From contig NZ_JAGTAR010000006.1 of assembly GCF_018156225.1 (NCBI RefSeq), positions 1 through 64,000 of the forward strand: 64,000 bases of DNA. The letters run 5' to 3'. This document shows positions 6,675 to 16,177 of the stretch, in pieces (positions within the stretch are counted from its first letter, which is position 1; each line of letters opens with the position of its first letter). The notes under the pieces are model-generated. The model was not told the DNA's origin, made no database searches, and saw only the letters and a list, made by a program, of their open reading frames with translations. The DNA comes from Carboxylicivirga sediminis (GTDB lineage Bacteria > Bacteroidota > Bacteroidia > Bacteroidales > Marinilabiliaceae). Position numbers and translations under genes: made by a program.

Positions 6675-7523
6675 TTAAAATTCCCACATATCGTGTTCCT
6701 TTTCAAAAATTTCTTGCTTGATGCGTTCTGACTCCATCATAGCCTCCATTCCTGCAGTAAATTCTTCAATACGGCGGTTATTATAAACGTTGGCTTCTTT
6801 ATAGATATAGCTGCCAAAATAACGCTTGATAAATATATCATCGAAAGTACGGCGTTGAGCATCGTTACGTGGGTTAAATACCTCATGACGGGCAAATAAG
6901 CCGCGTGCTTCAGGGAAGTAAATCCAGAATGTCTGTGATTTCCTTACTTGTCCTTGATCGCCTTCGCCACCGACGTACTCTCTGATAGGACACAAACCTA
7001 TAATCCGCACATCCATACGTGAGTATTTTCTGTCGAAGAACCAGATTTCCTTTAGCATGATTTGCTTAATCTCGGTTGAGCGCACTTCTCCACCTACGAC
7101 CTTTTCTTCATACATCCCAGTCTCGGCATTACGAATCATAGTTGTATCTGCAACTGCACCCATTTCACGCATTACCTGCTCTACTGTTAATGGCACCTGA
7201 AATTCATCTTCAGTTTTTGTTGAATAAGCCGTTAATCCTTCGTATTGAATGCCGTAAATTAAAAGATCAATCAAACTATAACGATCATCCATCTTAGTAG
7301 TTGGATAATACATAGGCAGATTAATTTTCTCACGTAAATCAATCACGCGCCAAATTTTCTTAGCCCATAGTACATCAGCCTCACGAACGTGCGCATATGG
7401 AATCGGACGACGATTAGGCACATGATCTTTAGTGTACAACTCAGTGTTTACTTCCTGTGCATGCACCATGTCAGCAGCACCAAATCCAAGCAAAACGATA
7501 AGGATAAAGAATAATCTTTTCAT
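6675..7523 (-). CDS. gldN: Type IX secretion/gliding protein GldN (PorN)
   Basis: A 282-residue periplasmic component of the type IX secretion system, equivalent to Porphyromonas PorN. It forms rings with the lipoprotein GldK under the outer membrane and contacts GldM. A signal peptide is evident (MKRLFFILIVLLGFGAADMVHA-Q). The mature protein carries the family's 'ADVLWAKKIWRVIDLREKIN' region (ADVLWAKKIW, RVIDLREKIN) and 'YGIQYEGLTAY', then 'LKEIWFFDRKYSRMDVRIIG', 'LCPI' and 'FWIYFPEAR'. It is the last gene of porP-gldK-gldL-gldM-gldN, starting 18 bp after gldM, and ends at a strong bidirectional terminator. Confidence 0.96.
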   Translation of the reverse strand: MKRLFFILIVLLGFGAADMVHAQEVNTELYTKDHVPNRRPIPYAHVREADVLWAKKIWRVIDLREKINLPMYYPTTKMDDRYSLIDLLIYGIQYEGLTAYSTKTEDEFQVPLTVEQVMREMGAVADTTMIRNAETGMYEEKVVGGEVRSTEIKQIMLKEIWFFDRKYSRMDVRIIGLCPIREYVGGEGDQGQVRKSQTFWIYFPEARGLFARHEVFNPRNDAQRRTFDDIFIKRYFGSYIYKEANVYNNRRIEEFTAGMEAMMESERIKQEIFEKEHDMWEF

Positions 7524-7541: not shown

Positions 7542-9104
7542 CTAGTCAACAGTAATCACTATAGGTGCCAGTTTTCTGTTACGTCCATCTGGTCCAATAG
7601 CTTTAATTTCTTCAATAGTTATTTTAGCACCCCTACTGGTTCCCTTAATCAACTCAATCTGAGCCTGAGTAAGTTTATTGCTTTTAGACAATTCACTCTG
7701 GAAGAAACCTCCTTTTATTGTAGCAATACTAAATTGCGTTACTTTATATTCTAATTCAAAATCAAAATCCTCTCCCATCTCAGCAAATACCCCACTCTGA
7801 CTTGCTAGCAGGTTTTTACGCACCTTACCATCACGCTTACCAGCAAAAGTAGCATATGGCAATGGTAATGGCTTAATACGGAACTCCTGGCTACCCAAAC
7901 GTCGCACTTGTCCGTTAATTTCAGCTGATACGCTTACAACCGATTTACCACCTGCGAAACCTGCCTTTGGTTTCACATAAAACACATCGCCACGCTTCCT
8001 GAATGTACAGTTACCAAATGAAACTCTCAGCTGACTACCTGAGATACCAGGCACAGAAACTTCAACTGGGTTTTCTAGAGCTTCATAAAATACATTCATC
8101 TTAGTCGGTGAAATCACCACGTTTGGCTGAATAACCTCATATTCACGATTAACAGCATAACGTCTTGGCTGTCCATCTGGTCCAGTCATTGAGATGATAC
8201 CTTTCCAACTTTTGGTTCCCAAAGAATTGGCAGGTATGGTTAACACACCACGACCATTAGGCTGAGCGTCCACACTGTGACCTTCAATATTAAACTCTGG
8301 CAACTGCAGTGTATCTGTTGCAGCCAGCAACAACTCGGCACGGTATTCGCCACCTTTGATAACAATCTCTGAACGAGGTATTACGATCGGCTCTACCTTA
8401 TTAAATTTGAAAGAACCTTCGTCAATACTATTCAACAAGTAGTTTGTTATATCTGCCTGCGTATTTCTGATATTACTCTGAATACTACTGAGCAATGCAA
8501 AAGAAGCAGATAAAGGTAAATGCTCAAACTTCTGACTTTCCCACGACTGTTGAACCTGACCTTGCTTTGGTTCTTTAGGCTCTGTAGATAAACTCTTGGT
8601 AATGGTATGTACCAAAGCTGTATCTTCGGAATTTACGTACTCTAGCAACAGATCTTTATACGCATTTAATTTTTCTTTTAACTCAATACTGCGTGCTCTG
8701 TTTTGCTCCGTTATCATGATTTGTGCAGCCACATCCTGATTATCGGCTCCCTTATAACTCTCCAAAGTAGCTTCCGGACTGCCATCTGCAGTGCGCATCA
8801 TTAATAGTTTCAGCTCGTGGATGTGATTGTAAAGACTATCAGCTTCACCATAAATCCTGTTAACCTTCTCGCGTACAGGCCTTACCTTGTTTGGATTAGC
8901 AAATTCTGCTACCTCAAATTGTGATTCCAGCTGCTTGTTTTTTACATCCGTTGCTTTAATACTTTCCTGAATACTTTCATCAACCAGTTGAAAAGCCTGA
9001 AGTAACTCTCCCGACACGTTCAATGCAAGCATTGCCGTGAGGAAAAGGTACATCATTCCGATCATCTTCTGCCTGGGGGTTTCGGGACAATTTCCGCCAC
9101 TCAT
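7542..9104 (-). CDS. gldM: Type IX secretion/gliding motor protein GldM (PorM)
   Basis: A 520-residue inner-membrane protein that, with GldL, forms the proton-driven motor of the type IX secretion system; its periplasmic rod reaches GldK/GldN. The N-terminus has the family hallmark 'CPETPRQKMIGMMYLFLTAMLALNVS', seen here as 'ETPRQKMIGMMYLFLTAML', forming the single membrane helix (about residues 12-32). Next come a helical region (about 35-220) and the beta-rich domains D2-D4, including 'RSEIVIKGGEYRAELLLAA' and a C-terminal 'APIVITVD'. Length and order between gldL and gldN match the family. Confidence 0.97.
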   Translation of the reverse strand: MSGGNCPETPRQKMIGMMYLFLTAMLALNVSGELLQAFQLVDESIQESIKATDVKNKQLESQFEVAEFANPNKVRPVREKVNRIYGEADSLYNHIHELKLLMMRTADGSPEATLESYKGADNQDVAAQIMITEQNRARSIELKEKLNAYKDLLLEYVNSEDTALVHTITKSLSTEPKEPKQGQVQQSWESQKFEHLPLSASFALLSSIQSNIRNTQADITNYLLNSIDEGSFKFNKVEPIVIPRSEIVIKGGEYRAELLLAATDTLQLPEFNIEGHSVDAQPNGRGVLTIPANSLGTKSWKGIISMTGPDGQPRRYAVNREYEVIQPNVVISPTKMNVFYEALENPVEVSVPGISGSQLRVSFGNCTFRKRGDVFYVKPKAGFAGGKSVVSVSAEINGQVRRLGSQEFRIKPLPLPYATFAGKRDGKVRKNLLASQSGVFAEMGEDFDFELEYKVTQFSIATIKGGFFQSELSKSNKLTQAQIELIKGTSRGAKITIEEIKAIGPDGRNRKLAPIVITVD

Positions 9105-9141: not shown

Positions 9142-9975
9142 TTATTTATTACCCATATTCATGGCACTTAGCATGTTACCGTAAATGGCGTTCAGCTCCG
9201 ATACTGACTGGCTCAACTGAGCAACCTGCTCACGATAAACCTTGGCATCATTAGCTGATTGCTGGAATTGATTGGTAATTTCAGATAATCCTTGTGTAAG
9301 GGCCTGCGAAGCCTGAACCTGGCTGTTTACTCCTTGTAGCTGCAGTTCGTAGGCAGAATTTATAGCTGCTAAATTTTTTGTTACATCATTTAATTTTTCA
9401 CCATAAGCCTGGTTGTTGGCCGACAGTGTTTCAAAATGTGCTTTAATGGCACTGCCTGATGTGGCATAGGTATTGGCTAATACTTCGCTGCTTTGGGCCA
9501 TTGATGCCTGCTGATTAGCAAATTGTCCAACTGCTTCACCAGCCGACTTCATATTCTGAATATAACTATCAGTGGCTACCGTGGCATTACTCAAATCAGA
9601 AAGTTGAGAGGATGTATCCGAAAGCTTTTTAATTCCTTCTGTTAATTTTTCAAGGTCTTTAGCATCCAAATTACCACTCTGCACAAGGGCAGCCAGTTCG
9701 CTACCACCTCCTTCTCCTCCTCTTTCTCTGGGTTCTAATCCATGTAATTCAGGATATACTAAACCCCAATCCGGCATTTCATGCGGTTTTTCAAACGCCG
9801 AAAGTGCGAAAATAATAGCTTCGGTACCTAATCCGGCAATCAACATAACAGAAGCGTAAGGTAAGTGAAGAATTTTCCACAGTGCTCCTAAAATTACCAC
9901 AGCCGCACCAAGACCGTATACTTTGCCCATAACCTTTTTATAAGCAGGGCTCTCAACAAATTCCGAAATACTCAT
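9142..9975 (-). CDS. gldL: Type IX secretion/gliding motor protein GldL (PorL)
   Basis: A 277-residue inner-membrane motor subunit that forms the pentameric partner of GldM. Two transmembrane helices lie near residues 18-36 and 40-62 ('VYGLGAAVVILGALWKILHL', 'ASVMLIAGLGTEAIIFALSA'). The conserved acidic residue in helix 2 (E in 'GTEAIIF') and the K in 'LWKIL' match residues considered important for proton coupling in this family. The long cytoplasmic tail is Ser/Gln/Asn-rich and coiled-coil-like, with a short Gly/Glu-rich linker (ERGGEGGGSE). The start ATG 9975 is followed by 'MSISEFVESPAYKK', typical of the family. Confidence 0.96.
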   Translation of the reverse strand: MSISEFVESPAYKKVMGKVYGLGAAVVILGALWKILHLPYASVMLIAGLGTEAIIFALSAFEKPHEMPDWGLVYPELHGLEPRERGGEGGGSELAALVQSGNLDAKDLEKLTEGIKKLSDTSSQLSDLSNATVATDSYIQNMKSAGEAVGQFANQQASMAQSSEVLANTYATSGSAIKAHFETLSANNQAYGEKLNDVTKNLAAINSAYELQLQGVNSQVQASQALTQGLSEITNQFQQSANDAKVYREQVAQLSQSVSELNAIYGNMLSAMNMGNK

Positions 9976-10020: not shown

Positions 10021-11349
10021 TTAGTCACCAATGTAATCTCTTACACATCGGAAACCAATAAATGATTTGGATGAATCCTGATATTCATAAGTACGTGTTC
10101 CATTTTGCAGGAAGTAACCTACATCTTTCCATGAACCACCACGTAATACTTTTCTTTTCATTACATGTGGGTCATCTGGTAAAGCATTGTACTTATAGGT
10201 TGGGTTAAAATCGTGTGTAAAAGTATATGCCGACTCGTCATATGCGCTTGAAGTCCATTCAGCCACATTACCAGACATGTCAAATAATCCATAATCATTA
10301 GGCGCGTATGAACCTACGGACATAGTTGTCATACCACCATCATCGCCATAGCGACCACGTAAAGGCTTGAAGTTTGCCAGGAAGCATCCCTTGTCGTTAC
10401 GGGTGTACATACCTCCCCATGGATACATGGCGTGCTCTAAACCACCTCTTGCTGCATATTCCCATTCAGCTTCTGTTGGCAGACGATAGTTATTCACGAC
10501 CGGCTCGCCTTTGCTGCTCAAATAACTATTTAACAATTGAGTACGCCAGATACAGAAGGCTGTCGCCTGTTTCCAGTTAACACCTACAACTGGATATTCA
10601 TCGAATCCAGGGTGCCAGAAATATTTCTCTGTCCATGGCTCATTGAATGAATAGGTGAAGTCAGCAATCCAGCACAGTGTATCAGGATAAACGTTTACAG
10701 CATCTTTCATAATAAAGGCCGAGCGATCCTTAATCTCTCTTTCTTCACCTCTTTGGTCGTAAACAACTCCTTCGTACTGTTTTGTTTCGAAGTTATAACG
10801 GTTGCTTCGCTTAGCAGCTTGTAAAAGATCAACCCACTCGTATTCGTAAGTTAACTTACGGGTATCAATTTCTTTTCTTCGAAAGAAACGTTCGTTTTCT
10901 GCCAAGTACATTTCATCAAGTATCTCAGCATATTCTTCGTTATCCCACTCAATCTCTTCATCCCAGTTTAGGAATGGAGGGTCAATTTCATTACCAAGAT
11001 AATCTTCGCTAATTAAAAATTCTTCGAACTGCTCACCCAACAAACGACGGGCAATTGAATCTCTCACCCAGAAAACAAACTGACGATATTCGCTGTTTGT
11101 AATCTCTGTTTCATCCATCCAGAATGAACGAACCGAAACTGTTTTTGTTTGTGAGGTCATTGTGTTAGCAATGTCCATATCATTTGGCCCCATATTAAAG
11201 CTTCCTTGTGGAATAAAAAGCATTCCGTAAGGATCTGGTTCATAGAATGAGGCGCGGCGCTGAACGCCAACCAATTCTCCACCACTGGACTGTCCGCATC
11301 CAGTTAAGATGGTGATTAAAATGACACTGATGGCAAGTACTTTCTTCAT
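10021..11349 (-). CDS. gldK: Type IX secretion lipoprotein GldK (PorK)
   Basis: A 442-residue outer-membrane lipoprotein that forms the type IX ring complex with GldN. The signal ends in 'ILTGC' with the lipidated Cys18. The mature part has the formylglycine-generating-enzyme (FGE/sulfatase-modifying) fold: 'IPQGSFNMGPNDMD' near the start, 'DETEITNSEYRQFV', 'YPVVGVNWKQATAFCIWR', 'RLPTEAEWEYAARGG' and the closing 'GFRCVRDY'. The enzymatic cysteine pair of true FGE is not expected in this structural relative. It lies between porP/sprF (48 bp upstream) and gldL (45 bp downstream) in one operon. Confidence 0.97.
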   Translation of the reverse strand: MKKVLAISVILITILTGCGQSSGGELVGVQRRASFYEPDPYGMLFIPQGSFNMGPNDMDIANTMTSQTKTVSVRSFWMDETEITNSEYRQFVFWVRDSIARRLLGEQFEEFLISEDYLGNEIDPPFLNWDEEIEWDNEEYAEILDEMYLAENERFFRRKEIDTRKLTYEYEWVDLLQAAKRSNRYNFETKQYEGVVYDQRGEEREIKDRSAFIMKDAVNVYPDTLCWIADFTYSFNEPWTEKYFWHPGFDEYPVVGVNWKQATAFCIWRTQLLNSYLSSKGEPVVNNYRLPTEAEWEYAARGGLEHAMYPWGGMYTRNDKGCFLANFKPLRGRYGDDGGMTTMSVGSYAPNDYGLFDMSGNVAEWTSSAYDESAYTFTHDFNPTYKYNALPDDPHVMKRKVLRGGSWKDVGYFLQNGTRTYEYQDSSKSFIGFRCVRDYIGD

Positions 11350-11397: not shown

Positions 11398-12378
11398 CTA
11401 TAAATATCTTACGCTTTTATACTGCTTCTTTCTTTTTTCTATACTGAGGTCAAACCGATAACCCAACATTATTTCATGCGATCCGTTTTTGGCCTCACTC
11501 AGTTCTGAAATACTGATGTCGTAGCTGTAACCTATTCGTAAACCATTGTTCAATTCTACGCCTCCCAACAGCACAATGGCGTCTTGCATTCGATAGGTTA
11601 ATCCGCCCCAATATTTATCTTTCAAAATGCCATTAATATTCCAGTCAATCTGGTAACTCGACATGTTTGTTTTCAGAAATATGGATGGTACCAGAATGAT
11701 TGGTCGTTTTTTCATTTGGATGCGATAGCCTCCGGTAATAAAAACAGTGCGGTCGAGGTAGGTGGTGTATGTATCTTTAAATTTAGGTTTTGGTTGATTA
11801 AGGTGAGCCACTGAAATACCCAAATAATAGGTTTTGTGTTCCAGAAAAGCTCCAAATCCTGCATCAAATGCCGTTCCCTGATCGTCCGGAAACTGTTCAT
11901 CCACATGCGAATTATCACCGGTGATGTCCTGTCCGTAACCAAACTCGGGCATTGTTTTCAAAATACTCCCGTTAATTCCCTGATTAAGCAGTCCTAACGA
12001 AAGCCCCACTCCTAACTTACCGTAATCCGTTTCCCATCGTTTTGCATAAACAGCCGACATATACAAGGTTGTAAAGGCGCCTATTTCATCATTCATGATG
12101 GTTAAACCAACTCCGCTGTTCCATCCCAATAAATTTACTTCTGTATCTACTCCAAAAACCGTTGTACTTGGAGCCAATGAAGAGCCGTCTGCTCCTTTAA
12201 ATCCGCCCATCCATTGTTGTCTGTTACCAAGCGTCAGATTCATCATTTCGCTTGTGCCTGCATATCCTGGGTTGACAGTCAAATGGTTAAACATGTTCTG
12301 ACTGAACTGAGGATATTGCTGCCCCCATGCGAGAGAAGCAATGCAAAATAACAGAAAAAATACTATTCTCCTAGCCAT
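11398..12378 (-). CDS. PorP/SprF family type IX secretion membrane protein
   Basis: A 326-residue outer-membrane beta-barrel of the PorP/SprF family, first gene of the type IX operon. It has a signal peptide (ARRIVFFLLFCIASLAWG-Q) followed by the family start 'QYPQFSQNMFNHLTVNPGYAGTS'. Other family features are 'LGNRQQWMGGFKGA', repeated amphipathic strands with 'AGFGAFLEHKTYYLGISVAH', and 'IMLGYRFDL' near the C-terminus. PorP and SprF proteins help export or anchor type IX substrates; adjacency to gldK is the classic PorP arrangement. A -7-like box lies 145 bp upstream, leaving a long structured leader. Confidence 0.92.
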   Translation of the reverse strand: MARRIVFFLLFCIASLAWGQQYPQFSQNMFNHLTVNPGYAGTSEMMNLTLGNRQQWMGGFKGADGSSLAPSTTVFGVDTEVNLLGWNSGVGLTIMNDEIGAFTTLYMSAVYAKRWETDYGKLGVGLSLGLLNQGINGSILKTMPEFGYGQDITGDNSHVDEQFPDDQGTAFDAGFGAFLEHKTYYLGISVAHLNQPKPKFKDTYTTYLDRTVFITGGYRIQMKKRPIILVPSIFLKTNMSSYQIDWNINGILKDKYWGGLTYRMQDAIVLLGGVELNNGLRIGYSYDISISELSEAKNGSHEIMLGYRFDLSIEKRKKQYKSVRYL

Positions 12379-12432
12379 GCCATAAAAAAGCTGGTATTAA
12401 CACTAAGAACCTGAGTTCATTTTATTGTTTCC

Positions 12433-12461
12433 ATGATTGATGTCACTTTCAATCATTTTTT
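12433..12461. other. Hairpin in the leader of the type IX operon
   Basis: ATGATTGA (12433-12440) pairs with TCAATCAT (12449-12456). On the plus strand it is followed by a six-T run, but no plus-strand gene reaches it. On the minus strand it would lie in the 5' leader of porP-gldKLMN. Nearby, AGCTGGTA (12389-12396) and TACCAGCT (12463-12470) could form a longer-range stem in the same leader. Confidence 0.4.
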
Positions 12462-12522
12462 CTACCAGCTGACAAAATGCTGGGGATATATACTCTAATT
12501 TCATATTAAAGGTTTCATTTTT

Positions 12523-12530
12523 CAAACTTA
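12523..12530 (-). promoter_or_regulatory. Putative -7 box of the type IX operon
   Basis: On the minus strand TAAGTTTG matches TAnnTTTG perfectly. Transcription would begin near 12516, giving a leader of roughly 138 nt before porP/sprF. No obvious TTG box was found at the -33 position. Confidence 0.45.
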
Positions 12531-12560
12531 TAAATCATAAAAACACCGCTTTATTTTGAT

Positions 12561-13721
12561 TTACAAGCTCTTTTTTTGAATGTAACGAAACCACTTCTCC
12601 GGTATCTCGTTCGCCGAAGCTGTTTCAAAATCCGTTCGACCACAGGCAATCACATCAACTCCACCTCCTTCACCTGGTATCTCTACCCACCAGCGGTCGT
12701 TATCCGGATTATTATAAAACTTAATTTCTAACTCATAATCGTCGAGATAAACGATAAACTGACGATACAAGTCCAGATCTTTAGCCGGATAATCATTATA
12801 ACGTAAAGCAATCCCTTCTAGTATGTGCCAAATGGCCTGAGCGGTTAAAACTATGCCCTGATGCCCTTTATCGTCGTGTACATCCTGCTCAAAAACACCA
12901 ATAACATTCAGCCGGTCGCTTTGACCGGCATACCACATCAGCTGGCACAATTCTTCACCTGATAAACCATTGGGCATAGGCGTAATATGGGCAGGCTGAT
13001 CACATTGCCTCACTACAGTCATATCAACACTTAGCAAATCGGCATCACGCAACACCGGTTCTGCCAGGCGATGCCCTAACTGCCTGATTTGTCCAAGACG
13101 AAGGATTTCGTATGAATGCTTGTGAAGTTCAGCTTCCTGCTTCGGGCTGTAGAGGTATTTTTGCACACCAACAAAAGATACATCTTTAGGTGCAACACCT
13201 TCTTGCTCACAAATTTTACCTAAATAATTGTTTGCCGAGTAATCTTGCGCATGAAGCAACCAGTCAATGCGACTATCTAAAATGGCCAGATTATACTTTG
13301 CCTGATATTGACGAACGGCCTTGGCCATTGGCAGGGTGTAATCCTGGCTTCCCCCAAGCACAATAGTTATAACTTTTAATGTCTGAAGATGCAACAAGAT
13401 ATCTTCGAGCGCTTTATATCTATCATCAATAGTATTTCCTCGTATATTACCCAGATCAACGATGGTAAGCGGCTTCGAAAGACTCCTCAAACCTGCCAGA
13501 TAGGAACGTACTAAATCCGGCGCCTCTGCGCTTCCTTTATGAACAGAATTCCGGGCATCATTCACCCCTATTAAAGCAATATCGACTGCATCCCAATCAA
13601 CCGTTTTCAGCTGATGAAAGCTATCTATTCCATTCTTGAGTCTGTCTTCATCCAGACCTTCAAAGGCATTTATTACTTTATAATTGGGTTGGTTAAAATA
13701 ATGTATCCAGTCTTCTGTCAC
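12561..13721 (-). CDS. Arginase-fold (ureohydrolase) protein with degenerate metal site
   Basis: A 386-residue protein of the arginase/agmatinase/formimidoylglutamase superfamily. The three metal-binding signatures are recognisable but altered. GGxHD has become 'GGSQD' (His to Gln), DAHxD has become 'DSRID' (His to Arg), and SxDxD has become 'SVDMT' (Asp to Thr). Three of the six usual manganese ligands are therefore missing, which argues against ureohydrolase activity. A C-terminal domain of about 90 residues ('YNDYPAKDLDLYRQFIVYLD', ending 'EIPEKWFRYIQKKSL') follows the fold. It starts 8 bp after the topA stop and lies directly upstream of the type IX operon. Automatic tools would probably call it formimidoylglutamase; a structural or regulatory role is more likely, by inference. 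Confidence 0.85.
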   Translation of the reverse strand: MTEDWIHYFNQPNYKVINAFEGLDEDRLKNGIDSFHQLKTVDWDAVDIALIGVNDARNSVHKGSAEAPDLVRSYLAGLRSLSKPLTIVDLGNIRGNTIDDRYKALEDILLHLQTLKVITIVLGGSQDYTLPMAKAVRQYQAKYNLAILDSRIDWLLHAQDYSANNYLGKICEQEGVAPKDVSFVGVQKYLYSPKQEAELHKHSYEILRLGQIRQLGHRLAEPVLRDADLLSVDMTVVRQCDQPAHITPMPNGLSGEELCQLMWYAGQSDRLNVIGVFEQDVHDDKGHQGIVLTAQAIWHILEGIALRYNDYPAKDLDLYRQFIVYLDDYELEIKFYNNPDNDRWWVEIPGEGGGVDVIACGRTDFETASANEIPEKWFRYIQKKSL

Positions 13722-13729
13722 AGGGTTAG

Positions 13730-16177
13730 CTATTTGGTTTTCTTAGCAGTCGCTTTCTTTTTTGTGGTTGTGGCCTTTTTAGTTGCTGTCGTTTTTTTAG
13801 TCGTTGCCGCTTTCTTGGCAGCTGTCTTCTTTTTGGGCGAAGCTTTGGTATCTGCCTCAATCAGCGCCTTACAGTCTTCCAAAGATAATTCTTCTGCATT
13901 TTTATCCTTGGGTATCTTGTAATTCTTTTTTTGGTATTTGATGAACGGCCCCCATCGACCGTTTAAAATTTGCAAATCCGGCTCCTCAGTAAATTCTTTG
14001 ATAATTTTTTTCAGATCTTCTTCGCGTTTGGTTTTAATACGCTCAATGGCTGTTTCCAGATCAATCTCAAAAGGATCGTCAACCCCTTTCTTCAGAGAAA
14101 CGAATTTACTATCGTGACGAATATACGGGCCAAAACGACCAATACCTATCACCACCACTTTATTTTCAAATTCACCAAGTGTTCGGGGTAACTTAAATAA
14201 GTCCAATGCCTCTTCCAGCGTAATGGTTTCCAGATGCTGTCCTTTTCTAAGCGATGCAAATCTTGGCTTTTCAGCGCCTTCTTCATCAGATGATACACCA
14301 ATTTGCGCCAATGGCCCAAAGCGGCCAATGCGCACAGAAACCTGCTGCCCACTCGCAGGGTCTACACCCAGGATGCGCTCGCCTGTGCTTTTTTCTGATT
14401 GCTCCAGGGTTTCTTCAACCGTATCATGGAATGGTTTATAAAATTCATCTATTGACTTGCTCCACTCCACATTTCCTAATGCCACATCATCAAATTCCTT
14501 TTCAACTTTTGCCGTAAAGTCAAAAGAAACGATACTCTCAAAATATTTAACCAGGAAGTCATTAACGACCATGCCAATATCTGTTGGAAACAGCTTACTC
14601 CTTTCTGCTCCTGTAATCTCTTTCTTCTCGCTTTCGATTAGCGGTTCTCCTTTTTCAAGCCACAAATGCTTATAGTGCCTTTCGGTTCCATCGCGATCCT
14701 CCTTCTCTACGTAGCCTCTGTTTTGGATGGTGGAGATAGTTGGAGCATATGTTGACGGACGGCCGATACCCAATTCTTCGAGCTTACGTACCAGGCTGGC
14801 TTCTGTATAGCGGGCTGGCTTCTGACTCCAGCGCTGACGTGCCTCTACATTCAGCATCTCCAATACTTCGCCTTTGTGAATTGGCGGTAACAACACACTC
14901 TCATTCTCTTCCTGTTCCCCTTCATTATCTGTTGATTCGATATATACCTTCAGGAAACCATCGAACTTAATAATTTCGCCTGTTGCCAAAAACTTTTCAC
15001 CAGTATTCCCTGCTTCAATATGAATCACCGTCTTCTCCAACTGGGCATCACTCATCTGAGAAGCAATGGTTCTTTTCCAGATCAGCTCATACAGGCGTTT
15101 CTCCTGTGACGAACCAGCAACCGTATCCTTATCTAGGTAGGTTGGGCGAATTGCTTCGTGAGCCTCCTGTGCCCCTTTTGCCTTGGTTTTATACTTTCGA
15201 ATATTGACATATTCAGGCCCCATCATTTCACTAATCTGCGCCGATGCCATATTTAAAGCTAAATCAGACAAGTTGACCGAGTCGGTACGCATATAGGTAA
15301 TCTTACCAGCCTCATAAAGTTTTTGTGCAATGGACATAGTCTGCGCAACTGAGAAGCCCAGTTTTCGTGACGCTTCCTGCTGTAGGGTTGATGTTGTAAA
15401 TGGCGCTGCAGGCGATTTCTTAACGGGCTTTTTCTCCACTTGTGAAACCAAAAACTCGGCATCACTGCATTTCTCAACAAATGCTTTGGTTTGCTCGTAA
15501 GTATCAAAACGCTTGTTCAGCTCTGCTTTAAGCTCCTTAACACGTCCTTTATCGTCGGTTACTTCAAAAATAGCGGTTACACGGTATGATGAAGTGGGTT
15601 TGAAAGCAAACACCTCACGCTCACGATCAACAATCAAACGCACGGCTACTGACTGAACACGCCCTGCCGATAAAGAAGGCTTCACTTTGCGCCATAATAC
15701 AGGTGATAGCTCAAAACCCACCAAACGGTCAAGTACACGCCTGGCCTGCTGTGCATTTACCAGGTTAATATCAATTTTTCGCGGATTTTTAATGGCTTTC
15801 TGAATCGCATCCTTTGTAATCTCATGAAATACAATGCGTCGCGTATTTTCTTCTTTGAGCTCAAGTGTTTCAAACAAGTGCCAAGCAATAGCCTCTCCTT
15901 CACGGTCTTCATCGGAAGCGAGCCATACCATCTTGGCATTCTTGGCCAACTGCTTTAATTCCTTAACAACTTCCTTTTTGTCGGAAGATATGATGTAATC
16001 GGGCTGATAATTATTATTGATATCAACGCCAAAATCACTCTTTGATAAATCGCGAATATGCCCATAGCTCGATTTCACCAGAAAGTCTTTACCCAAGAAT
16101 TTCTCGATGGTTTTTGCCTTCGCAGGTGACTCGACTATCACCAAGTTTTCTTCCGTAACCGTTGTTTTTTTACCCAT
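13730..16177 (-). CDS. topA: DNA topoisomerase I
   Basis: Type IA topoisomerase of 815 residues that relaxes negative supercoils. The Toprim domain begins 'LVIVESPAKAKTIEKFLG' (catalytic Glu16) and carries the acidic triad in 'ASDEDREGEA' (Asp89, Asp91, Glu93). The active-site tyrosine is Tyr295 in 'ITYMRTDSVN'. Instead of zinc-finger cysteines, the C-terminal part has three GR[FW]GP repeats ('GRFGPLAQIG', 'GRFGPYIRHD', 'GRWGPFIKYQ'). The last ~36 residues are almost pure Lys/Ala/Thr, like a histone H1 tail, and probably bind DNA nonspecifically. It is followed after 8 bp by the arginase-fold gene, so the two are probably co-transcribed. Confidence 0.97.
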   Translation of the reverse strand: MGKKTTVTEENLVIVESPAKAKTIEKFLGKDFLVKSSYGHIRDLSKSDFGVDINNNYQPDYIISSDKKEVVKELKQLAKNAKMVWLASDEDREGEAIAWHLFETLELKEENTRRIVFHEITKDAIQKAIKNPRKIDINLVNAQQARRVLDRLVGFELSPVLWRKVKPSLSAGRVQSVAVRLIVDREREVFAFKPTSSYRVTAIFEVTDDKGRVKELKAELNKRFDTYEQTKAFVEKCSDAEFLVSQVEKKPVKKSPAAPFTTSTLQQEASRKLGFSVAQTMSIAQKLYEAGKITYMRTDSVNLSDLALNMASAQISEMMGPEYVNIRKYKTKAKGAQEAHEAIRPTYLDKDTVAGSSQEKRLYELIWKRTIASQMSDAQLEKTVIHIEAGNTGEKFLATGEIIKFDGFLKVYIESTDNEGEQEENESVLLPPIHKGEVLEMLNVEARQRWSQKPARYTEASLVRKLEELGIGRPSTYAPTISTIQNRGYVEKEDRDGTERHYKHLWLEKGEPLIESEKKEITGAERSKLFPTDIGMVVNDFLVKYFESIVSFDFTAKVEKEFDDVALGNVEWSKSIDEFYKPFHDTVEETLEQSEKSTGERILGVDPASGQQVSVRIGRFGPLAQIGVSSDEEGAEKPRFASLRKGQHLETITLEEALDLFKLPRTLGEFENKVVVIGIGRFGPYIRHDSKFVSLKKGVDDPFEIDLETAIERIKTKREEDLKKIIKEFTEEPDLQILNGRWGPFIKYQKKNYKIPKDKNAEELSLEDCKALIEADTKASPKKKTAAKKAATTKKTTATKKATTTKKKATAKKTK

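Follow-up and report, generated by a model that had tools for sequence, protein, structure and literature searches.

The window, by which we mean the whole stretch of 64,000 nucleotides that was analysed (positions 1 to 64,000 of contig NZ_JAGTAR010000006.1 of Carboxylicivirga sediminis), carries a gene for an arginase-fold protein that appears to have left enzymatic work behind. Alignments and locus comparisons show that the metal-site positions of this pseudo-ureohydrolase are degenerate in all members examined, that a C-terminal domain has been added, and that most named loci have the gene in close linkage with topA. We lean towards the view that the protein is a cytosolic, non-catalytic descendant of a formimidoylglutamase-like enzyme and would serve as a binding module, with TopA or a TopA-linked process as the likeliest partner.

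The positions of the gene, its motifs and its neighbours are collected in Table 1. The first-pass annotation had placed the gene between topA and porP-gldKLMN on the same strand, and this arrangement was borne out, with topA, porP/sprF, gldK, gldL, gldM and gldN all confirmed. The plus-strand reading of the same interval is full of stops. The GTG start lies 8 nt from the stop codon of topA, and translational coupling across these few bases may occur. In every one of the 14 same-genus orthologues, as in several from the same family (loci L004-L020), a GTG (13719-13721 in the window) is the first in-frame start codon. A simple hydropathy test found a hydrophobic, signal-peptide-like N-terminus in none of the 158 rows of the family alignment.

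Table 1. Coordinates of the pseudo-ureohydrolase gene, its motifs and its neighbours in the window
Feature	Coordinates	Strand	Remarks
Pseudo-ureohydrolase gene	12561..13721	(-)	GTG start at 13721; 386 aa; stop included
Arginase-fold part, residues 47-300	12822..13583	(-)	Pfam PF00491
GGSQD, residues 123-127; first ligand His replaced by Gln (Q126)	13341..13355	(-)	Q in 124 and H in 17 of 158 rows
DSRID, residues 149-153; R151 in place of the middle His, D149 and D153 retained	13263..13277	(-)	K/R in 98 and H in 5 of 158 rows
SVDMT, residues 231-235; D233 kept, second Asp lost (T235)	13017..13031	(-)	Asp in 0 of 158 rows
R208...E221-x3-R225 core	13047..13100	(-)	each in 158/158 rows; each in 0/17 comparison proteins
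Private C-terminal domain, residues 308-386	12564..12800	(-)	F335, R343-W344-W345, C360, P374, W377
topA, DNA topoisomerase I	13730..16177	(-)	most persistent neighbour
porP/sprF	11398..12378	(-)	Pfam/NCBIfam; next gene downstream of the pseudo-ureohydrolase gene
gldK	10021..11349	(-)	TIGR03525, 612.7 bits
gldL	9142..9975	(-)	NCBIfam
gldM	7542..9104	(-)	NCBIfam
gldN	6675..7523	(-)	downstream of gldM
Conserved non-coding stretch between the pseudo-ureohydrolase gene and porP	12379..12560	(-)	possible leader of the T9SS genes

Both the Pfam score and the predicted model assign the protein to the arginase alpha/beta fold. Its Pfam Arginase score is 63.4 bits, where the cut-off is 22, and the AF2 model of the whole protein reaches a pLDDT of 94.3 and a pTM of 0.93. 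Residues 22-307 of the model have their best PDB match in the formiminoglutamase of T. cruzi, 4myn (Z 37.5; 1.9 A over 279 residues). The family alignment comprises 158 rows representing 157 distinct proteins, as the window protein occurs twice; the rows are the better-scoring search matches, and the most divergent members are therefore under-represented. Invariant in all of these rows are R72, G91, G123, R208, E221, R225 and G252, and also C259, G266, W298, F335, W345, C360 and P374. As a comparison set we used 17 proteins, of which 15 came from other classes of the phylum and two were the host paralogues; R208, E221 and R225 are foreign to all of them (Table 1).

The second private trait is the Trp-rich C-terminal domain of about 80 aa, which is present in nearly all homologues and in none of the comparison proteins. 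Modelled alone with AF2 it has a pLDDT of 90.9 and forms a four-stranded sheet with two helices. The domain of the window protein has no Pfam match, and when 63 such domains were scanned against Pfam at E <= 1 no family matched more than three of them; the top family was PF22479, a phage baseplate plug (best E 1.6e-4). The fold comparison gave no convincing PDB match (best PDB row Z 3.6, best Foldseek E 0.38), which is not proof of a new fold. An origin from TopA repeats was considered on account of a GRW/RWW likeness and of mycobacterial topoisomerase I rows with Z 3.0 and 2.6. It was rejected, as eight HHalign comparisons with the TopA repeat PF13368 gave probabilities of 0.0-0.7 and repeat-to-repeat controls gave 95.9-98.6. 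A profile of the domain matched 34 of 40 near genomes including the window's own; in 32 it gave a single match and in the other two an extra one near the threshold. Across the phylum it matched 48 of 198 genomes: 47 belong to the window's class (own included) and have one match each, and the 48th match is weak and lies in a frame with stops. Three class genomes, G071 and G153 (both of family f29) and G248, are listed as having no match.

The metal ligands of E. coli SPEB are H126, D149, H151, D153, D230 and D232, as given in PMC8049259; the window positions were matched to them through the motifs, not by direct alignment. An enzyme of the arginase/ureohydrolase type has six ligands (two His, four Asp), and the window protein has three of them, D149, D153 and D233, with Q126, R151 and T235 at the remaining positions. 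The comparison proteins carry H (12) or N (5) at position 126, and all 17 of them have H at 151 and D at 235. Alignment with them upheld the original observation that three of the six manganese ligands are lost. Scoring of the homologues, a check proposed at that time, found none with an intact site among these better-scoring matches: five or six ligands are kept in 0 of the 158 rows, four in 19, three in 122 and none to two in 17. The loss is thus not a local mutation. At position 235, where no row has Asp, the residue is mostly S, T, G or N. The ligands that serve the second metal alone, which we take to be His126 and Asp234 in rat arginase numbering, are the most thoroughly abolished in the 158 rows, and the others are retained or often conservatively replaced. 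Thus, the loss follows the structure of the metal site.

Five additional proteins, belonging to families f9, f29 and f31, have the remaining Asp cluster broken as well. All five keep R208, E221, R225, G252, W298, F335 and C360, and four of the five keep C259. The f9 proteins are shortened to 330 aa, with the shortening in the N-terminal half. In the two divergent f29 proteins position 235 is Asp and the RWW motif, P374 and W377 are changed; in the f31 protein W377 is changed too. This decay of the Asp cluster in a gene that is nevertheless kept is, in our view, the best indication that the function has ceased to depend on the metal site. The alignments thus argue for the non-catalytic ureohydrolase fold that had been proposed from the window alone.

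We found the gene in 49 of 60 genomes (the window's own and its relatives). It is present in 188 of 197 class genomes (E <= 1e-15), usually once, and in 171 of 246 order genomes; among these 'present' calls G425 (2.2e-18) in the class and G565 (7.4e-17) and G629 (4.7e-18) in the order are weak and may be canonical relatives. Within the wider phylum 139 of 296 genomes gave a match, and the matches examined from other classes, with E as low as 8.1e-41, were canonical relatives in which the C-terminal domain is missing. Among named relatives, Carboxylicivirga proteins are nearest, with 65% identity. A quick tree placed 71 family rows on one side of a branch and the 17 comparison proteins on the other, with an SH-aLRT of 100. 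Comparison of the window gene with that of a 98%-identical relative (dN 0.012, dS 0.14) shows purifying selection between these two sequences. The family probably had a single origin at or near the base of Bacteroidia, followed by mainly vertical inheritance.

To describe the neighbourhood of the gene we used 80 named loci, which are the best 80 of at least 586 relatives and not a random draw. In these, topA adjoins the gene in 61 and gldK was found in 52. Both are present in 50 loci; 11 have topA without gldK, including one with porP and one with a short downstream end; 17 have neither; and none has gldK without topA, two more having gldK but less than 1 kb of upstream DNA. The gap from the topA stop to the start of the gene has a median of 9 nt and a range of -4 to 175 in 132 loci, not de-duplicated. 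The short gap and the locus counts indicate that topA is a more persistent neighbour than gldK. In a larger tally of 202 loci some genomes are counted more than once and some loci extend over just 1.5 kb of flank, so we rely on the 80 named loci instead. Where topA and gldK are both missing, the loci share no neighbour beyond one cluster of four. In these four (L099, L100, L104 and L105, from three Paludibacteraceae MAGs and one Bacteroidales MAG) the gene adjoins a shared cluster encoding proteins of about 238, 1075 and 736 aa, and topA and gldK are absent from the sequenced flanks examined.

Of the two traits looked for in a TopA partner, gene linkage was found (61 of 80 named loci) and a need for the protein wherever topA occurs was not. 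All 30 gene-lacking genomes that were checked have topA, so TopA does not need the pseudo-ureohydrolase. The Lys-rich tail of TopA has a median charge of 11 in 59 proteins from gene-bearing genomes and of 7 in 30 from gene-lacking genomes (p 0.001); we set this difference aside as evidence because it is confounded by relatedness.

We propose that the protein would be co-expressed with topA and act as an adaptor or regulator through its C-terminal half, that is, through the R208/E221/R225 core and the Trp-rich domain. Gene linkage would make TopA, or a TopA-linked process, the likeliest partner, and the physical partnership itself is a proposal. The porP-gldKLMN genes would then be an ancestral neighbour in gene order, perhaps with a leader of their own, and not a functional partner. 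Several points speak against parts of this picture. Close linkage can be inherited order without function, 17 of the 80 named loci have neither topA nor gldK, and the gene is associated with GldK (see below). The Asp235 and the changed RWW motif of the f29 proteins also weigh against it, as does the lack of detectable homology between the C-terminal domain and the TopA repeats. A more specific idea, which we offer only tentatively, is a Bacteroidia-specific TopA partner whose Trp-rich domain would bind TopA or TopA-bound DNA and tune supercoiling, possibly tied to expression of the T9SS operon.

The first-pass annotation had suggested that the protein is perhaps a structural or regulatory part connected to type IX secretion (T9SS). 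Its neighbourhood is indeed shared with the T9SS core genes for PorP/SprF, GldK, GldL, GldM and GldN. The order topA-gene-(porP)-gldK is widespread and was seen in named loci of Bacteroidales, Flavobacteriales and others. Among the matches listed, gldK lies within 3 kb of the gene in at least 81 of 129 class genomes and within 4 kb in at least 68 of 127 order genomes. These values are lower bounds, with matches on other contigs numbering 42 in the class and 54 in the order, the class value covers those 129 of 150 listed gene matches for which a GldK was also listed, and the order value is based on 127 GldK rows, 23 of the 150 gene matches being left out. All 149 gene-gldK pairs within these distances (own genome counted twice) lie on one strand with the gene upstream. 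As nearly every class genome has GldK (196 of 197 give a match at E <= 0.001 and 190 score above the cut-off), the class sample could not test co-occurrence. In the order sample, GldK was found in 228 of 246 genomes (E <= 1e-60), and the gene is present in 168 of the 228 with GldK and in 3 of the 18 without it (Fisher p 2.2e-6, by genome, ignoring relatedness). Without the weak calls G565 and G629 the values are 166 of 228 and 3 of 18 (p 3.3e-6). GldK-bearing members of families f26, f175, f178, f189 and f191 also lack the gene, which indicates that part of the association is clade-wide loss.

This gene order, the same-strand pairs, the association in the order sample and the near-universal presence of both the gene (188 of 197) and GldK (196 of 197) in the class would all suit a cytosolic protein that assists or regulates the type IX secretion motor by binding the cytosolic parts of GldL or GldM, an explanation that we nevertheless consider doubtful. 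Both GldL and GldM possess cytosolic parts that such a protein could touch. GldK is described in PMC12635249 as disulfide-linked to SprF and PorG in the T9SS, and this link and the parts just named keep the idea alive as a rival. However, the gene and the T9SS are separable in both directions. We rejected strict co-occurrence of the degenerate form with the T9SS, as 60 of the 228 GldK-bearing order genomes lack the gene and 3 of the 18 GldK-negative ones keep it, a pattern at odds with a T9SS core component. Linkage to type IX genes in other genomes, the absence of which had been named in advance as a refutation, is common yet not constant. The 22 gene-lacking genomes tested for GldL had it in six cases (G018, G056, G369, G432, G476 and G494) and lacked it in 16, of which 15 had been chosen as GldK-negative. 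Among 30 gene-lacking genomes, four have porP-gldK or gldK immediately behind topA.

Conversely, some genomes keep the gene and have neither GldK nor GldL. No GldK (E <= 1e-60) and no GldL (E <= 0.001) was found in G665, which is 99% complete in a single 2.66-Mb contig, or in G713, and in both the gene lies 6 nt after topA, with the metal site gone and R208, E221, R225 and the C-terminal motif kept. G689 (95% complete), also without a GldK or GldL match, has a full-length copy 33 nt after topA; absence of the T9SS in these three genomes is judged by GldK and GldL alone. Two class genomes, G399 and G465 (95% complete), contain the gene or a piece of it and have absent or weak GldL, and they were not counted as T9SS-free. 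The copies that lie 6 nt past topA in the two genomes without GldK or GldL matches, at L228 (6044-7036) and L229 (6300-7292), are shortened and have no arginase metal site. In the named loci where the cluster breaks, the gene stays with topA. The T9SS core proteins belong to other Pfam/NCBIfam families, and the window protein differs from them in its lack of a signal-peptide-like N-terminus and in its separable distribution.

Within the genus, porP also owns a conserved upstream stretch, which counts against the T9SS rival. The non-coding block TATATATCCCCAGCATTTTG and its flanks (12379-12560, minus strand) occupy the same place in 14 of 14 same-genus genomes with 0-2 mismatches, and in about 2.6 Mb of partly redundant sequence the block has only one match elsewhere, with four mismatches. 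Its CCAGC/GCTGG hairpin is invariant, so covariation cannot test it, and overlaps a terminator-like stem, GCTGGT...ACCAGC-T6, directly before the porP start. A small hairpin in the stretch has four pairs with changes on both sides among 10 sequences. The stretch has no Rfam match, and its single-sequence folding gave a z of -1.33, matched by 20 of 200 shuffles. The stretch may act on the T9SS core operon as an attenuator or leader RNA.

Retention of part of the old site raises two further explanations. Most rows keep the three Asp residues (D149 in 155, D153 in 141 and D233 in 146 of 158), 98 have K or R at 151, and E278 is present in 107, all of which would fit a small-molecule sensor whose old pocket of three Asp and Lys/Arg binds a cationic or amino-acid ligand and signals via the C-terminal domain. 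We think such a sensor unlikely, since the five f9, f29 and f31 proteins have a broken Asp cluster yet keep most of the C-terminal half, and since K or R at 151 is found in only 62% of rows. Quite improbable, in our judgement, is an enzyme that would still work with one metal at site A only, held by three Asp and Gln/His. The losses are non-random, with the second-metal-only ligands gone in most rows, and relatives carry Asn at the first ligand position too (5 of the 17 comparison proteins), as such an enzyme would allow. However, the second metal site is gone, the window family has other residues in place of the S-G-T/S loop that most of the 17 comparison proteins carry, and three lineages have lost Asp ligands and still retain the gene.

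The best NCBIfam match of the window protein is hutG (TIGR01227), with 62.1 bits, far below the cut-off of 229.15. Four other family members scored 35.3-70.3 bits with this model and a fifth had no match. The host genome holds two other arginase-family genes on other contigs, and both exceed the cut-offs of their models (HutG, 278.9 bits; agmatinase, 207.6 bits). As, judged by model scores, the host thus possesses a HutG and an agmatinase besides this protein, the name 'formimidoylglutamase' is very probably wrong for the window protein, and an early warning against this annotation proved sound. Although hutG is the top NCBIfam match and the nearest folds are formiminoglutamases, the low score, the lost metal site and the presence of a protein above the hutG cut-off elsewhere in the same genome make it highly improbable that the protein is an ordinary formimidoylglutamase, as automatic annotation reads. 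The host HutG (L001 1456-2445, host genome C59) has an apparent Cys (LTLCTDV) at the first Asp of S-x-D-x-D, a placement that depends on the alignment. A strain described in the genome paper PMC11278836 is reported to lack the histidine pathway 'except for formiminoglutamase', and this would fit a possible mislabelling of the pseudo-ureohydrolase.

Among known systems, the formimidoylglutamases (HutG; T. cruzi 4mxr and 4myn; B. subtilis 3m1r) have the arginase fold in common with the window protein, which unlike them is without three metal ligands and the substrate loop and has the extra C-terminal domain. Histone deacetylases, of the arginase/HDAC superfamily, have a reduced metal site in the same fold. 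They retain one catalytic metal, equivalent to arginase site B, whereas site B is abolished in the window protein. Pseudoenzymes and heteromeric ureohydrolases are known kinds, and the MfmB subunit of metforminase is presumably itself non-catalytic. In metforminase MfmAB (PDB 8snf), two ureohydrolase-family polypeptides must be co-expressed for one active heteromer to form, according to PMC11647477, which by analogy shows a precedent for a ureohydrolase fold working by assembly. MfmA and MfmB are encoded together, whereas the other two arginase-family genes of the window host lie on other contigs. No connection between an arginase-fold protein and either the T9SS or topA turned up in the open-licence literature; in the parts of PMC4755523, PMC12147357 and PMC11278836 that were available, the shared terms were unrelated or stood in the reference list. 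As far as we found, the class-wide spread and the private C-terminal domain are undescribed in that literature.

The pseudo-ureohydrolase is thus a gene of 188 of 197 class genomes for which we found no published function and which is easily misread as a histidine-degradation enzyme. If the protein is a partner of TopA, it would add a new mode of regulation for a housekeeping topoisomerase. Should it instead be a T9SS regulator, it would be a cytosolic regulator encoded beside the core cluster.
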